DNA of 39,162 nucleotides from Planctomycetota bacterium (GTDB lineage: Bacteria > Planctomycetota > Planctomycetia > Gemmatales > Gemmataceae): the NCBI GenBank assembly GCA_021413735.1, contig JAIOPV010000157.1, positions 1 to 39,162 on the forward strand. The letters run 5' to 3'. How positions within the stretch are numbered: position 1 is the first letter of the stretch; every line of letters starts with the position of its first letter. The position numbers were made by a program, and so were the translations under genes. The notes below the pieces were generated by a model that was given only the letters and a program-made list of their open reading frames with translations, was not told the origin of the DNA and did not search any database. Of the stretch, positions 17,762 to 27,582 are shown piece after piece.

Positions 17762-18355
17762 ATGAGCGATACCGACACGGCCCTGGTCAAACGGGCACGC
17801 AACGGCGACCGACCGGCATTCGAGGAACTGGTCCGTCGAACCTCGCGGCTCGTGTTCGCGCGCCTGTATCTCGACACCGGCTGCGCCGATCGCTCGGAGG
17901 ATCTCCTTCAGGAGACGTTCCTCCATGCATTCCGGGCGTTGCCCAAACTCGCGGACCCCGCCGGCTTCCGTCCCTGGCTCCTCTCCATTGCCCACAATGC
18001 TCTGATCGACGACGCTCGCCGTGCAACCCGGCTCAAGCGACTCAAACCGCCGCCGTCAGATACGCCATTGTCGGAATTAGCGGCCGCGGGGCCAGCGCCT
18101 GACGAAATTGCTGAGCGCACGGAGTTGCGTCAGCGTGTGCTTGCCGTGCTGCGGTCGTTGCCGGAGGAATACCGACTGCCGCTGACCCTGAGATACATCA
18201 CCGGTGCCGATTTCGACACCATTAGCCAGCAGCTCGGCCTCTCGAACGGTTCGCTTCGTGGGTTGCTGCACCGCGGATTGAAGATGCTTCGCGCCCGCCT
18301 GCCGTCCGACCTTGCGCCCGAAAGCGTTGGCGAGCGAGCGACGACGCATTACTGA
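17762..18355 (+). CDS. ECF RNA polymerase sigma factor
   Basis: A 197-residue extracytoplasmic-function sigma factor. Region 2 is visible at about residues 10-85 (DRPAFEELVRRTSRLVFARLYLDTG, then DLLQETFLHAFRAL and FRPWLLSIAHNALIDDARR) and recognises the -10 element. A short linker (about 90-120) leads to region 4 (about 122-180: VLAVLRSLPEEYRLPLTLRYITGADFDTISQQLGLSNGSLRGLLHRGLKMLR), a helix-turn-helix for the -35. GGAGG lies 6 bases before the ATG. The stop is 8 bases before the next start, which encodes a zinc-finger anti-sigma factor, the expected regulator. The regulon cannot be read from the window. Confidence 0.93.
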   Translation: MSDTDTALVKRARNGDRPAFEELVRRTSRLVFARLYLDTGCADRSEDLLQETFLHAFRALPKLADPAGFRPWLLSIAHNALIDDARRATRLKRLKPPPSDTPLSELAAAGPAPDEIAERTELRQRVLAVLRSLPEEYRLPLTLRYITGADFDTISQQLGLSNGSLRGLLHRGLKMLRARLPSDLAPESVGERATTHY

Positions 18356-18362
18356 GGAAACC

Positions 18363-21300
18363 ATGTCCGACCACACCTGGACCGAAGAACACGTTGAGGC
18401 ATACCTCGCCGGCGGGCTGACCGCTCAGGAAGCGGAGCGGCTGGAAGCCCACGCCGAGGAGTGCGCCGTGTGTGCCGGTCTGCTGAACTCAAGCCGAGCC
18501 TTGGACCGCGAGTTGAATAGCCTCTTTCTCGACATTCGACCCGGCCCGGAACTGGAGGATCGCCTCGTGAACAATCTCCGCAATGTTTCGGAACCGCGAA
18601 AGCCTGTGTTCGCTCGCTGGTCGGGTCGCCTCGTCGCAGCCGCGGCCGCTGTGCTTTTCCTCGGTGCGTTCGGAGCGCTGGCGAGCAGCGTTGCCGAGAA
18701 CGGGTTGCCGATGCCCGGCAGTCCGAAGGCGATGCAAAGGTTTTCACGGGCATCCGGGCGAGTTCACAGAACCCCTGATGAGATTCCCACAGGTGGTGAC
18801 CCGAACAAAGACTTAACCAACGAAGACCCCGGTTTGCAGTCGAATCTCGAAGGGGCACTGCCCAATATCGAGCGATTGGACAAACAGAATGTCGATGGAT
18901 CCGTCACGACGGACGACCTCGGACAGCCGAAAGCCCCAGACGTCGACACCGCGAAAAAACTTTACTCGCTCGGTTATTCCCCTCCCATGTCGAGTTACAC
19001 AGGAGACAAGGGTAAGGGGAACGAGTGGTTCGCTCGACATCCCGACGGAAATTTCAAGCCAGCCGATCCGTACTCGAAGCCGGTCCCAACAAAGGGCGCG
19101 GAACAGTACGGCAACTTCAATTCGACCGGCAGAGTCGAGCTCGATAAGGCTATGGAGGAGAAGGGGGCAAAGGCACGGGAAAACAAGTTCGCACAAACCG
19201 AGGCCACGTCTCGCGAATATTACGATCCAAAAGCACCCCCGCTGCCAGTTGTGACCCCCGTTGTCCCGGGTGCAGGCCCTGTTGCCACCGTCGCTCCCCC
19301 GGTCACTCCGGTAAGCGGCCTGCCGGCTCCGTCCGCAACGGGTCCGGCGCCTGCTCCCGATATAACTCCGGCACCACGCGAACCGAAGAAAGATCCCATT
19401 GCTGATCCGAATCCGGAGCCGGCGAAGCGCGTCATTCTGCGCTCGGGCAACATGGAATTCGAGGTGCCGTCGTTCGATGCCGCTTCCGCGACGATCACCA
19501 AGAGCGTGCTCGGCATCAAGGGCGCGTTCATCGCCACGGTCAACAGCGACAAGCTGCCCAACGGCAAGGTGAAAGGTTCGATCACCGTTCGCACGCCGCC
19601 GGAAAATCTCGATTCGCTCGTCCTCGAACTCCGCAAGGAACTCGGCAAAGACGGCGAACTCAAAGGCGTTCGCATCTCCAGCCAGGATGTGACGAAGCAG
19701 TACACCGATTTGGAGAGCCATCTTCGCGCTTATCGCACGATGGAAACGCGGCTCATCCAGATCATCAAGGAGGGCAAGGGCGAGATCAAGCAGTTGCTCG
19801 AAGCGGAACGGGAACTCGGCAACTGGCGCACGAAGATCGAAGAAACCGAGGGCGAACTGCGGTATTACGCGAACCTCGCGGCGCTCAGCACGCTGGTCAT
19901 TACGCTGACCGAGAAGGAGATTCGCGCTGCCGCCACGCTGACCGAGAACGAACGAGTGCAGGCCGGCGTCGAAGTCGATGACGTGGACAAGACCTATCAG
20001 GAGATTCTCAAGGCCATCCTCGAAGCCAAGGGCCACATCATCAAGTCGGAAGTGAAACAGCTCACGGCAGGGCAGTTCAGCGCTACGTTGAACTTCGAGG
20101 TTCCCCCGGACGCTGCTGGCCCGATGCGTGATCGGCTCAAGCAACTCGGTCGCATCGCTCGGCTGGAAATCGACCGCGTCCAAAACCCCGAGGGCGGCAC
20201 GCTGCCAACCAACGCGAAGCTGACCCGTGGCGACACCATGTTCATGGTGCAGCTCTACAACCTCGCCAACATCGCGCCGCGTGAAACGACTATGCTTCAC
20301 ATTGCGGTTGCGGATGTCTCGGCGGCGTTACAGAGCTTGCGAGATGTCGTGGGCAAGGCCACGAGCCGCGTGTTCACGGCTCGGTTTGACGAGCAAGACA
20401 AGTCGAACCCGACGGCTCAACTCGATTTCGAGGTGCGCCGGACCGACGATGGTGCTGTTCGTGCTGCTCTCGAAGCAGCTGGCGAAACGTTCTCGCGTCA
20501 ACTCACCCGTGCCCCGGAGAGCGACAACGTCACCGACACGAAGGTTCTCTACCGGATCTCGGTGATCTCGATGGCGAAGTTGCGTCCGCGTGAAACGGCG
20601 ACCATGAGCGTTGCCGTGAATGATGTGCCTGCCGCGTATCAGGCACTCCGAGCAGCCGCGGGTAAGACGACGAGCCGCGTGCTGAACGCACAGATCAACG
20701 AGCAGGACCGCCAGAACATCTCGGCGAATCTGGATATCGACGTGAAGAAGGCCGATGAGCCAGCGATTCGCACGGCCTTCGATGCCTCGGGCGAAGTGCT
20801 TTCCCGGCAGACCACGCGGGCCCCAGATAACGAAACCGCGACCGACAGCAAGACGCTGTATCGCATCACGATCATCTCGATGGACCGGTTGCGTCCGCGT
20901 GAAACGGCCACGCTGAACGTGGCGGTCGTGGATGTGCCCGCAGCGTATCAGGCGTTGCGAGACGCGATCGGCAAGGCGAATGGTCGTGTGCTGAATGCGC
21001 AGATCAACGAGCAGGACCGCCAGAACATCACGGCACACCTTGATCTCGATGTGAAGCGCACCGACGAAGCGGCAGTTCGTGCGGCCTTCGATGCGGCTGG
21101 CGATGTACTCTCGCGGCAAGTGACGCGAGTTCCGGAAAGCGACAGCGTGACCGACTCGAAGGTGCGTTACACGGCGTCGTTGGTTCCTGCGAACCGGCTG
21201 AAGCCGCGAGAGACGACGACACTTGGCATCGAGGTCAGCAACGTGGAAGAAACCGCGACGCTGTTCGCGGCACAGGCTGCTGAGGTGAAGGGGCGTCAGG

Positions 21301-21740
21301 GGGATCCGAAGTTTACTCGCGACAGTTCGGGCAAGACGATCGCGAAACTGGTGTTTGATGTGCCGTTGACCGCTGCTGCGGGTTTAGTGGAACGCTTCAA
21401 GTCGGCGGGCACGGTGCGGTCGTTGCAGTCGGTTCGCGATTCGCAGGCGACCGACGGTAAGTTCGCGACGGCTCGCATCGAGGTGACGCTGGGTAATCGC
21501 GATAGCATCGTGGCAGACGAGGACGGGTTGACTTCGCAGGTACGTCGTGGGTTGTCGTACAGTGCGACGGTGCTGCTGACATCGGTGACGTGGGTGATCT
21601 TTGGGCTGTGTGTTCTTCTGCCGTGGGCGATCATTGGATATGTAGTATACCGCGTGATTCGTCGGGCGTTCTTCGCGACAGCGACCCCCGCAGCAGAGAT
21701 GACTCCGACGCCCACCGCACCACCGCCTGCAACCGCGTGA
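18363..21740 (+). CDS. Giant anti-sigma factor: zinc finger, DUF4349 and four 103-residue repeats
   Basis: A 1125-residue membrane protein co-transcribed with the ECF sigma factor. Residues 1-80 form a ZAS-type anti-sigma domain with H30-x3-C34-x2-C37. A membrane helix spans about 90-110. A low-complexity linker (to about 355) contains a block starting DLTNEDPGLQ that recurs in the ARPP-1 protein at 28314-29633. A DUF4349-like region follows (about 357-560: VRTPPENLDSLVLELRKEL, QYTDLESHLRAYRTMETRL, then a coiled coil). Four tandem repeats spaced 103 residues apart then run to about 1030, each marked by PRET followed by a conserved beta strand. A second membrane helix lies at about 1070-1095. 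It probably senses envelope state and releases the sigma factor. GAGGAAA precedes the ATG. Confidence 0.85.
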   Translation: MSDHTWTEEHVEAYLAGGLTAQEAERLEAHAEECAVCAGLLNSSRALDRELNSLFLDIRPGPELEDRLVNNLRNVSEPRKPVFARWSGRLVAAAAAVLFLGAFGALASSVAENGLPMPGSPKAMQRFSRASGRVHRTPDEIPTGGDPNKDLTNEDPGLQSNLEGALPNIERLDKQNVDGSVTTDDLGQPKAPDVDTAKKLYSLGYSPPMSSYTGDKGKGNEWFARHPDGNFKPADPYSKPVPTKGAEQYGNFNSTGRVELDKAMEEKGAKARENKFAQTEATSREYYDPKAPPLPVVTPVVPGAGPVATVAPPVTPVSGLPAPSATGPAPAPDITPAPREPKKDPIADPNPEPAKRVILRSGNMEFEVPSFDAASATITKSVLGIKGAFIATVNSDKLPNGKVKGSITVRTPPENLDSLVLELRKELGKDGELKGVRISSQDVTKQYTDLESHLRAYRTMETRLIQIIKEGKGEIKQLLEAERELGNWRTKIEETEGELRYYANLAALSTLVITLTEKEIRAAATLTENERVQAGVEVDDVDKTYQEILKAILEAKGHIIKSEVKQLTAGQFSATLNFEVPPDAAGPMRDRLKQLGRIARLEIDRVQNPEGGTLPTNAKLTRGDTMFMVQLYNLANIAPRETTMLHIAVADVSAALQSLRDVVGKATSRVFTARFDEQDKSNPTAQLDFEVRRTDDGAVRAALEAAGETFSRQLTRAPESDNVTDTKVLYRISVISMAKLRPRETATMSVAVNDVPAAYQALRAAAGKTTSRVLNAQINEQDRQNISANLDIDVKKADEPAIRTAFDASGEVLSRQTTRAPDNETATDSKTLYRITIISMDRLRPRETATLNVAVVDVPAAYQALRDAIGKANGRVLNAQINEQDRQNITAHLDLDVKRTDEAAVRAAFDAAGDVLSRQVTRVPESDSVTDSKVRYTASLVPANRLKPRETTTLGIEVSNVEETATLFAAQAAEVKGRQGDPKFTRDSSGKTIAKLVFDVPLTAAAGLVERFKSAGTVRSLQSVRDSQATDGKFATARIEVTLGNRDSIVADEDGLTSQVRRGLSYSATVLLTSVTWVIFGLCVLLPWAIIGYVVYRVIRRAFFATATPAAEMTPTPTAPPPATA
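20223..21460 (+). repeat. Four in-frame tandem repeats of about 309 bp in the anti-sigma gene
   Basis: The PRET codon blocks start at 20280, 20589, 20898 and 21207, giving an exact 309-base (103-codon) period. Repeats 2 and 3 are the most alike: QINEQDRQNIS and QINEQDRQNIT are encoded by DNA that differs at one base over more than 30 positions. The first and fourth copies are more diverged. Outer limits are approximate. Confidence 0.85.
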
Positions 21741-24477: not shown

Positions 24478-24516
24478 GTAAGTAAAGTAGCTCCGTTCCG
24501 CCGCCGGAGGCGATTG

Positions 24517-27500
24517 ATGGAAACGACCGTTCGGGCGACCTGCCCCCAATGTCAAACCGTCCTGAAAATCCCAAGTCAGTGGCTTGGTCAGGCGATCAAG
24601 TGCAAGAAGTGCGGGACCGTGGTCCGGACAAAGGCCCGGGGTGACGGCGCAACCGAAACGGCGAGACTCGACCAAACCCAACCCCAGCAGAACGGGAACG
24701 GAGTCGATCACGGCGCGTTCGACTTCGCGGCAGGATCGCCAGACGACGGCGACGGTTCGCTTGAGTTCACCTCACCCGCCAGCGATTCAAGCCCGGACGG
24801 CGGCTTCGACCCAACGGGCGGCGCAGATATTTCCTCGCAGCAGCAACAGCAAGCAGCCCCGCAGCCAGCCCCGCCGAGTTACCCGTATCCTGTGCCGCCG
24901 GGCTACCCGCAACCGGGAGCCGTGCCGCCAGGCTATCCGCAACCGGGATCTGCCTACGGCGCTCCCCCTGGCTATCCTTACGCGCCGCCTCCGGGTTACC
25001 CTTACGCACCCCCACCCGGATATCCCCCTGGTGCGCCTCCCGGATATGGCCCGCCACCCGGAGCCTACGGCGCTCCGCCTGCCGGATACCCGTATACGCC
25101 ACCTCCCGGATATCCACCAGCTCCCGCTTCCGGAGTTTACGGCGCTGCTCCCGGATACCCGTATCCGATGCCTCCGGGCACAACTGGCCCCGGTGCGCCG
25201 CCCGCGCCCGGAATGCCAGGTGGAATGCCCGGAATGCCTCCTGCGTCGGGCGTCTACTATGGCGCTGGCGGTGGTGCGTATCCGCCCGCACCGGGCGCGC
25301 CAGCAACTCCGCCAGCACCAAGGTTCTCGGCACCGCCAAGCCCTGGTGCCCCGGCGGCTCCGCCCGCGCCGAAGTTCCCAGCACCACCAGCCCCGGGTGC
25401 TCCTCCCGCCCCCGCTTCGGGCGTGATGTCGGGTCGTAATGGGACTGGCCCAGCCAAGCCCGGAATGCCGCCTGCGAAGCCCGGGGCACCAGCGCCTGTG
25501 CAACCCGCGAATCGGCCCGCCGCTCAACCCGCACCGAACAGTGCGTTCAAGACTGATGTTCCCGCCACTTCCGCGAGGACTCGAAAGGGCAACGACAAAT
25601 CCAAGATGATTTGGGTTGCGGTGTGTCTCGTCTTGACGGGCGGATTGGTCACTGCGGCGATCATGGTTGCAAAATCCATCAACAGCGCCAACATCGCCAA
25701 GAAGCTGCCAGACGACCCGTACAAGCTGGTCGAGCACCACATGACCAGCCTCGATTCCGTTGAGCGTGACGCGGCGATCAAGGCGCTCCGCGACATGGGC
25801 GACAGGGCTGAGCCGGCTCTCAAGGAAGGCGCAAAATCGAGCAACCCCGACGTCGCCAAGAAATGCCAGGAGTTGCTTGCCTCGATCAAGACTGATCCGA
25901 AGAGCAACGCCGGCCACGCGAAGACCGGGCCGTTCCCACGGCGGCTGCTGTTCATCCACATCAGCAAGTACATGTACCTGAACCCACTGACGGCAGGCCA
26001 AGCCGGTGGCGAAGACCGCACCAAGGGCGCTGCCATTCGCCTTGCGAACGAATGGAGTGTTCCGTTCGACCCGAAGGACAACGAACGGAATCAGCTCTTC
26101 TTCATGTCTGACACCGCACGGCCGGACAACCTGAAGACAAACGACGTTCAGACACCCATGAAGAATGTCGTCGAAGGAACGTACACTCAGTTCTTCGCGA
26201 CGAGCCGGGGTCAAGATCGAATCGTCGTGTACTTCGGCGGGCACGCTCTGGAAAAAGACGGCAAGGCGTATCTCGCTCCGATCGAGGGCGACCTCGACGA
26301 TCCGGAACCTTCGCTGATTCCGCTCTCCGATTTTTACGACAAGATGAAGATGTGCAAGGCCACACAGCGAGTCGTGATTTGGGACGTTTGTCGGTACAAC
26401 CCGCAGCGAGGTCGGCAGCGGCCCGGCAGCGAGCCGATGAGCGAAAGTCTGTACAAATCCCTCGCGGCCGCACCGCCCGGGGTTGAAGTGATTATCACGT
26501 GTCAACCTGGCGAGAACGCACTGGAGTTCTTCAACGTCCAGATCGAGTCTGGTGCGACGGCGACTGCCCCGAAATACGCTGGCAGCGCGTTCCTGGAGTC
26601 GATGAAGTATGTTGCCAGCAAGAACTCGAAGCTGGTCACGAAGCAGGCGGTCCCAACCGATCCGATTCCCATTGTCGAGTGGTCAACCCAGGTCGGGAAG
26701 CGAGTCACCGACATGGCGACTTCACCTGTTGTGAATCTCAAACAGGGTCTCAAACTGGAAGGGAAGGCGCCGGCGAACTGGGTCGCGTTCAACCCCGAGG
26801 AGCCGATTGCCAAGCGATTTGAATTCCCGTTGCCGCCGAAGGGAACGAACCCCGCCGAGGTCGCGGCTATCGTGAACGAGTTCAACGTCCCGTCGATCAA
26901 GCTCGACCTCATCGATTCGGGCCTCGGCGCGTTGCCGTTCCGCGAGGAGGTGATGAAGGATTACAAGTCCGACGTGACGATTGATATGGTGCTGAAGAAC
27001 AAAGAAACCTACAAGTTCCAGGCCAAGACGTTCGACGCCATCGACAAGATTCGCAAGATGTGGACGGTCACGTCTGGGGCATCGGGCGGACCACAAATGC
27101 GAGACGACTTCAAGGCACCGGTCAACGACGCCCTGAAGAACGAAATCAAGAAGGAGCAGGATTTCTGGGCAATCGGCGTGGCTGAACTCGACCTCATCAA
27201 CGCGGAACTCGACGGGCTCGCAGCGGATCGCGAATCACAACCGAAACGTTGGCAGGCTCACTACGATTACGCTCGCGCTACGATCAAGGCTCGGCTCGCG
27301 TTCATGAACGAGTACAACAAGCTCATGGGCAACGTGCTGACGGAAACTCTGCCCGCGCTCGACGCCAAGCTCGGTCAAGACACTTACAAGTTGACCTCGA
27401 CCGAGAAGATGAAGAGCAGCAAGGAAGTGCAGGCGCTCGCCAAGGAGGCCAAGGAGGCGTACGAGAAGTTGGTGACCGACCACAAGGGCACCCCGTGGGC

Positions 27501-27582
27501 GATCCAGGCCAAACGGGACAAGTCGTTCGCGATTGGCCTTGCGTGGGTGCCGATCAGCTCCGGAGCTGGCACCGCCCCGTGA
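24517..27582 (+). CDS. Membrane protein with zinc ribbon, PPGYP-rich region and caspase-like domain
   Basis: A 1021-residue protein with an unusual layout. Residues 9-32 form a zinc ribbon of the MJ0042 type (C9-x2-C12, C29-x2-C32). About 107-340 are Pro/Gly/Tyr/Ala rich with many PPGYP units. A membrane helix spans about 365-386 (IWVAVCLVLTGGLVTAAIMVA). A HEAT-like pair follows (about 402-455). About 465-690 resembles a caspase/C14 domain: RIVVYFGGHALEKDGKAYLAP with His576, and RVVIWDVCRYNP with Cys625, the expected catalytic dyad. The C-terminal 300 residues are unassigned. The topology puts the zinc ribbon on one side of the membrane and the peptidase on the other. GGAGG precedes the ATG; a possible ECF promoter lies at 24448. 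Confidence 0.8.
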   Translation: METTVRATCPQCQTVLKIPSQWLGQAIKCKKCGTVVRTKARGDGATETARLDQTQPQQNGNGVDHGAFDFAAGSPDDGDGSLEFTSPASDSSPDGGFDPTGGADISSQQQQQAAPQPAPPSYPYPVPPGYPQPGAVPPGYPQPGSAYGAPPGYPYAPPPGYPYAPPPGYPPGAPPGYGPPPGAYGAPPAGYPYTPPPGYPPAPASGVYGAAPGYPYPMPPGTTGPGAPPAPGMPGGMPGMPPASGVYYGAGGGAYPPAPGAPATPPAPRFSAPPSPGAPAAPPAPKFPAPPAPGAPPAPASGVMSGRNGTGPAKPGMPPAKPGAPAPVQPANRPAAQPAPNSAFKTDVPATSARTRKGNDKSKMIWVAVCLVLTGGLVTAAIMVAKSINSANIAKKLPDDPYKLVEHHMTSLDSVERDAAIKALRDMGDRAEPALKEGAKSSNPDVAKKCQELLASIKTDPKSNAGHAKTGPFPRRLLFIHISKYMYLNPLTAGQAGGEDRTKGAAIRLANEWSVPFDPKDNERNQLFFMSDTARPDNLKTNDVQTPMKNVVEGTYTQFFATSRGQDRIVVYFGGHALEKDGKAYLAPIEGDLDDPEPSLIPLSDFYDKMKMCKATQRVVIWDVCRYNPQRGRQRPGSEPMSESLYKSLAAAPPGVEVIITCQPGENALEFFNVQIESGATATAPKYAGSAFLESMKYVASKNSKLVTKQAVPTDPIPIVEWSTQVGKRVTDMATSPVVNLKQGLKLEGKAPANWVAFNPEEPIAKRFEFPLPPKGTNPAEVAAIVNEFNVPSIKLDLIDSGLGALPFREEVMKDYKSDVTIDMVLKNKETYKFQAKTFDAIDKIRKMWTVTSGASGGPQMRDDFKAPVNDALKNEIKKEQDFWAIGVAELDLINAELDGLAADRESQPKRWQAHYDYARATIKARLAFMNEYNKLMGNVLTETLPALDAKLGQDTYKLTSTEKMKSSKEVQALAKEAKEAYEKLVTDHKGTPWAIQAKRDKSFAIGLAWVPISSGAGTAP

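Follow-up and report, generated by a model that had tools for sequence, protein, structure and literature searches.

A core membrane protein of Gemmataceae with a caspase-like domain whose putative catalytic cysteine is repeatedly missing

Caspase homologues of bacteria are often discussed as enzymes of cell death or defence. The gene described here carries such a domain within a near-universal component of one planctomycete family, probably outside the cytoplasm. It lies in a 39,162-nucleotide stretch of DNA (referred to below as the window) on contig JAIOPV010000157.1 of a Planctomycetota bacterium assigned to the Gemmataceae (GCA_021413735.1), and its product consists of a zinc ribbon, a proline-rich arm, a single membrane helix, a caspase-like domain and a C-terminal helical region (Table 1). 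No description of this protein family was found in the titles and abstract starts of the papers that keyword searches of the open-licence PMC literature listed.

In MALT1, a paracaspase of peptidase family C14, the catalytic dyad is formed by H415 and C464. Roles in the S1 pocket are reported for two of its acidic residues, D462 and E500 (PMC4626109). The window protein has a His, a Cys and two S1 acids in register with these, and the DxCR motif is common to both; unlike MALT1, however, it is bacterial, membrane-anchored and probably exoplasmic, no death or Ig domains were found in it, and the Cys is absent from many of its relatives. Type I metacaspases can bear a proline-rich repeat and a zinc finger N-terminal of the p20 domain (as described in PMC5756287). 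In the window protein, by contrast, the ribbon is of the MJ0042 type, a membrane helix stands between the arm and p20, and no p10 domain is recognised; the N-terminal likeness likely reflects convergence. Pseudo-orthocaspases are characterised in PMC6426788 as caspase homologues in which the dyad is broken and the acidic pocket kept, with Tyr/Ser and Tyr/Asn as the commonest cyanobacterial forms and 90% of the group in cyanobacteria and alphaproteobacteria. They are the nearest precedent for the loss of a nucleophile with the pocket kept, but in the family described here the His stays and only the Cys changes, and the window protein's own dyad is intact. An earlier survey (PMC3501461) put the conservation of the dyad in Planctomycetes at only 64%, and counted 46 caspases of prokaryotes that lie behind one N-terminal helix. 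Among NCBIfam models, that of the EACC1-associated caspases (NF047832, caspase_w_EACC1) is the closest to the family.

The original prediction, made from the letters of the window and its translated reading frames, placed His576 (in YFGGHAL) and Cys625 (in IWDVCRY) at the spacing of the C14 dyad and proposed a comparison with metacaspases. Both residues are in place, 49 residues apart, and family profiles settle the assignment of a caspase-type domain as more than a chance motif. Taken alone, the window protein has no match to Pfam C14, and matches NF047832 at 1.1e-5 over residues 558-625 with 25.1 bits (curated cut-off 140). Among 83 aligned members of its family, 79 match this model at E <= 0.01 (best 7.5e-15) and 49 match Pfam Peptidase_C14 at the same threshold (best 1.3e-13), the other 34 having no C14 match at E 0.01. 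A profile built from 98 caspase domains, 83 of them from the window protein's family, found MALT1 as the best solved relative in the PDB (1.4e-7), and solved metacaspases also matched: Metacaspase-1 (7qp0, 1.7e-6), Metacaspase-4 (6w8s, 9.9e-6) and MCA2 (4afr, 1.9e-4). The metacaspase matches stop at profile position 98 of 246, and neither Pfam nor NCBIfam gave a p10 match in the window protein or the family members. A profile of the 83 whole regions reached MALT1 only at 0.015. In the MALT1 profile alignment, H576, D623, C625 and E670 are paired with MALT1 H415, D462, C464 and E500 respectively; since the two S1 acids are thus in register, Arg or Lys is predicted at P1.

Our genome samples were grouped by group codes rather than NCBI ranks, and we infer their equation with Gemmataceae, Gemmatales and Planctomycetia. 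Matches to the window protein occur in 91 of the 95 genomes of its family, including all 66 good ones; 65 of these 66 contain a match at E < 1e-30, and the remaining one (G020) only a weak match (1.7e-5). Since it is missing from very few of the family's sampled genomes, the gene is a core gene, and not an island gene or a sporadic defence gene. In a class-wide draw, 245 of 248 genomes have some match at 1e-10. Whole-profile matches are found in a second family of the order (7/7 genomes, one of them cut by the contig start), while other orders, among the matches listed, have the C-terminal part only or, in a few, the caspase part only. Over residues 451-1021, identity is 85% and 76% in two relatives, Planctomycetaceae bacterium DS2.012 (L001) and Gemmataceae bacterium CJuql4 (L002), and 50-64% in long copies of other genomes of the genus. 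The window's own genome contains three more relatives, two at 63% and 57% identity and one C-terminal-only copy at 35%, and one weak caspase match; it also has six Pfam C14 matches, none of which is the window gene. No relative was found in the viral collection. Caspase-only relatives carry TPR (L143), Sel1 (two proteins of L144) or FGE-sulfatase (L146) domains. As a separate observation, one genome (G276) contains two rows of three adjacent caspase genes (L144:5209-13584 and L145:6486-12187), with Sel1 repeats in two of the three tested by Pfam.

The original prediction had made conservation of H576 and C625 in orthologues its own refuting test, and the two residues fared differently. Family members were fetched in part (6 of 7 in the second family), and 91 distinct open reading frames were reduced to 83 rows by dropping eight without an aligned H576 or without a caspase part. 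Only one row lacks the His (a Gln stands in its place), so that this half of the pair held, but the Cys is missing from 20 rows, replaced by Asn (8), Phe (8), Ala (3) or Gly (1). The tree of the 83 rows requires at least 11 changes in the state of this Cys, at least six of them on supported branches. It is present in all 22 rows of the window's supported clade and in 47 of 49 rows of a wider set, compared with 16 of the remaining 34. The 20 Cys-less rows keep the rest of the site largely unchanged (His, D623 and C662 in 20/20 each, E670 in 17/20), and for 19 of these 20 proteins no second full-length copy occurs among the matches listed for their genomes. In the second family, all six fetched members have the His and only one has the Cys. 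Both residues are present in all nine caspase-only outgroup proteins examined, which suggests that the domain was probably an active enzyme ancestrally, and that loss of the nucleophile has probably been repeated and tolerated in this family with the pocket kept. As many relatives retain the protein without the cutting Cys, recognition of a target beyond the inner membrane may matter more than cutting. A pseudo-caspase group would thereby be added beside those of cyanobacteria and alphaproteobacteria.

The zinc ribbon, the low-complexity stretch of about 230 residues rich in PPGYP and the single membrane helix named in the original prediction are all borne out, and its proposal that the N-terminal parts and the caspase domain lie on opposite sides of the membrane is supported. 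The ribbon has its CxxC pairs at residues 9/12 (CPQC) and 29/32 (CKKC), and a CxxC-CxxC pattern precedes the membrane helix in 67 of 72 long members. The arm, for which the original prediction offered phase separation or partner binding as conceivable roles, contains 85 Pro in 235 residues; among members its Pro content ranges from 9 to 40% (middle value 23%), and at the DNA level only two short tandem arrays are present. All the strongest hydrophobic windows of the protein fall at about residues 363-388. Lys and Arg total 349 on the N-terminal side of the helix versus 177 after it, in the same sense in 65 of 71 proteins, with two opposite and four ties (in one further long row no helix passed the threshold, and one of the rows counted, L106, represents a short paralogue that was read together with upstream frame). 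The short paralogues of about 550 residues have, in 10 of 11 cases as judged by eye (the exception being L104), a signal-peptide-like, seemingly cleavable start where the long form has its ribbon, arm and helix. Cytochrome c domains are matured outside the cytoplasm, and the proteins of L057, L058 and L060 have a CxxCH near the C-terminus together with matches to the cytochrome c domain PSCyt1. From the charge bias, the signal-peptide-like starts and the C-terminal cytochrome c, the caspase domain probably faces the periplasm, on the exoplasmic side of the inner membrane, which would leave the ribbon and the arm in the cytosol.

Beyond what the original prediction named, the last 220 residues or so are also conserved, and this C-terminal region links the window protein to other proteins of the class. 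At 1e-8 it is matched in 15 of the 199 genomes of a phylum-wide draw, namely 11 of the 12 in-class genomes among those listed and four outside the class, and it appears nearly confined to Planctomycetia. Its alignment (A4) took 55 of 108 prepared stretches; a PDB search with the region gave a best E of 0.25, to a design. In other orders, the region follows a transmembrane helix and, mostly, a vWA domain (a Pfam vWA family is matched at E <= 0.016 by 11 of the 13 proteins tested, and by neither of the other two), and two or three genes of this type are adjacent in eight of the nine loci L147-L155. Like the window protein, the proteins of these loci have one transmembrane helix near the N-terminus and the same C-terminal region; they differ in having a vWA domain instead of the caspase domain, and the CxxC-CxxC pattern was not found in them. 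When one vWA-type protein was used as query against the 95 family genomes, 60 gave matches; among the matches listed, all lie in the C-terminal region except two weak ones elsewhere, and none reaches the vWA part. This confinement indicates that the caspase domain stands where the vWA domain stands in other orders. A Ser/Thr kinase is found in the same context in one open frame, L051:1057-4233, which encodes ribbon-like cysteines, the kinase (Pkinase, 4.3e-44), a transmembrane helix, a caspase-like domain and the C-terminal region. In L109, a kinase (2.2e-43) and a membrane helix (by eye) precede the C-terminal region without a caspase domain. The short paralogues adjoin a TPR gene in 11/11 cases, as do four C-terminal-only copies (the TPR being confirmed by Pfam for 2 of 15). 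In the window's clade, the TPR-linked paralogue consists of the C-terminal region alone (L056:8315-9331, in the window's own genome, and L112, L113 and L114), and in other species of the genus a short caspase form occupies the TPR-linked position. Since the TPR neighbour is shared, the C-terminal-only copy may be the short form minus its caspase part, and the TPR-linked gene of the window's clade seems to have lost that part.

We favour, with about even confidence for and against, the reading that the protein is an exoplasmic receptor or processing module of Gemmataceae in which recognition is kept and cleavage is optional, and which is not a death protease. A core membrane protein of the family, with a related form in the second family, would present a paracaspase-like domain outside the inner membrane, where this domain may bind periplasmic peptides or proteins by a basic (Arg/Lys) end. 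Cleavage of the bound end by C625 is likely in the window's lineage, and other lineages would only bind it. The C-terminal region, which elsewhere follows vWA domains or a Ser/Thr kinase, could serve as the common partner or output part, and the cytosolic ribbon and arm may couple the periplasmic event to the cytoplasm. More tentatively, a caspase-fold domain may have replaced the vWA domain in front of the class-specific C-terminal module in Gemmatales, and become an outward receptor for basic peptide ends that sends its signal across the membrane, and in some species directly to a fused Ser/Thr kinase, with catalysis optional and lost many times while the His and the pocket were kept. If true, one core protein would exist in nature as a series of forms, some of them sensors only and others sensor and protease at once. 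Its matched Cys-containing and Cys-less forms make roles of the caspase fold other than cutting directly testable by comparison.

Several points weigh against this favoured reading. The original prediction had named a fold unlike C14 as its other refuting outcome. The two AlphaFold2 models, made with only three sequences (the window protein, L001 and L002), are poor, with a predicted local distance difference test score of 41.7 for residues 462-1021 and 42.4 for 472-744, so that their caspase-like order of strands and helices is no proof of the fold, which is instead based on profile similarity together with this secondary-structure order. A Foldseek search with the 472-744 model ranked MALT1 first (E 4e-3, template modelling score 0.25), which is a hint only, as an aminoacyl-tRNA synthetase came second, unrelated folds were mixed in with MALT1 and nothing was found at E <= 0.001. 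The tree of the 83 rows was built by a "quick" method without the Cys625 column and does not give the direction of the changes (gain versus loss). That a genome lacks a second copy, or a vWA form, holds only among the matches listed, and the kinase fusions seen number just two. A candidate third S1 acid, D500, which would correspond to MALT1 D365, occurs in 40/63 Cys-containing rows against 3/20 Cys-less rows, but its co-loss with Cys625 was rejected as evidence, since no link appears on independent pairs.

The window protein, with dyad and S1 acids intact and the Cys kept in 22/22 and 47/49 rows of its clades, could also be a full protease, namely an exoplasmic paracaspase-like peptidase specific for Arg/Lys. 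For this to hold, the Cys-less relatives would be secondary losses in lineages where another peptidase took over, and the His and Cys of all the outgroup proteins examined do suggest an ancestral activity. We regard this as possible, if somewhat doubtful, since the Cys changes state so often while the rest of the site is mostly kept, since nearly all Cys-less proteins come without a second full-length copy among the matches listed, and since the Cys is missing from five of the six proteins fetched from the second family. At the other extreme, the domain may be a pure pseudo-caspase scaffold even in the window protein, with Cys625 in a structural or redox role, perhaps paired with Cys662. The persistence of the protein without Cys625 in other lineages is consistent with a scaffold, as is the near-invariance of Cys662 (80/83); Cys662, however, is kept equally where Cys625 has been lost, which argues that it is not there as a partner of Cys625. 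MALT1, moreover, has a Cys at the aligned place, and every row of the near clade has Cys625; both speak against a scaffold, which we consider improbable.

A role as a defence or programmed-death effector, suggested in the original prediction by what is known of bacterial caspase-like proteins, fits the presence of bacterial caspases in EACC1 and vWA-MoxR conflict systems (described in PMC7159879) and the weak match to the EACC1-associated model. We consider it very unlikely here. The gene is near-universal in the family sample, its caspase domain probably faces away from the cytosol, where a cytosolic effector would have to act, and PADLOC-DB gave no match for the window protein at E <= 0.01. 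Its scores against NF047832 (25.1 and 26.6 versus 140 bits) are far under the cut-off of that model, and no EACC1 gene lies directly 5', as one would in the EACC1 two-gene system. Instead, the 5' neighbour is an isocitrate/isopropylmalate dehydrogenase gene (Iso_dh, 5.4e-101) on the other strand, in divergent orientation, and further neighbours encode an isochorismatase-type hydrolase and then an ARPP-1 protein; the neighbours with Pfam matches look metabolic or of undefined role. Iso_dh is also the commonest neighbour when frames overlapping the gene are set aside, but at only 16 of 66 long-form loci, so that there is no family-wide partner gene.

Table 1. Features of the gene and of its product, with positions in the window.
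Feature	Position	Strand	Basis
Gene for 1021-aa (amino acid) membrane protein: Zn ribbon, Pro-rich arm, transmembrane helix, caspase-like domain, C-terminal helical region	24517..27582	+	ATG at 24517, stop ends 27582
GGAGG, likely ribosome-binding site, 6 nt 5' of ATG	24506..24510	+	sequence
MJ0042-type zinc ribbon, residues 6-35	24532..24621	+	Zn_ribbon_4 E 0.0046, TIGR02098 E 0.0083, both under curated cut-offs
Pro/Ala/Gly/Tyr-rich arm, residues 111-345, 6 PPGYP	24847..25551	+	composition
Single membrane helix, residues ~364-386	25606..25674	+	hydropathy; Lys/Arg excess N-terminal of helix in 65/71 members
Weak HEAT-like segment, residues 410-461	25744..25899	+	HEAT_2 E 0.017, under cut-off
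Caspase-like domain, residues 472-744	25930..26748	+	family profile matches
His576, catalytic His by alignment	26242..26244	+	kept 82/83
Asp623, aligned with MALT1 D462, S1 pocket	26383..26385	+	kept 82/83
Cys625, catalytic Cys by alignment	26389..26391	+	kept 63/83
Cys662, second conserved Cys	26500..26502	+	kept 80/83; 20/20 in rows without Cys625
Glu670, aligned with MALT1 E500, S1 pocket	26524..26526	+	kept 80/83
C-terminal helical region, residues 800-1021, common to vWA and kinase proteins of the class	26914..27579	+	homology searches

Two other reading frames of the window were noted in passing. A 699-aa frame at 34249-36348 matches a PADLOC HEAT-ARM model at 2.4e-8, probably through generic repeats only. 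At 18312-21740, a protein of 1142 residues combines zf-HC2 with four DUF4349 stretches, and a gene similar by eye is located upstream in L001 and L002.

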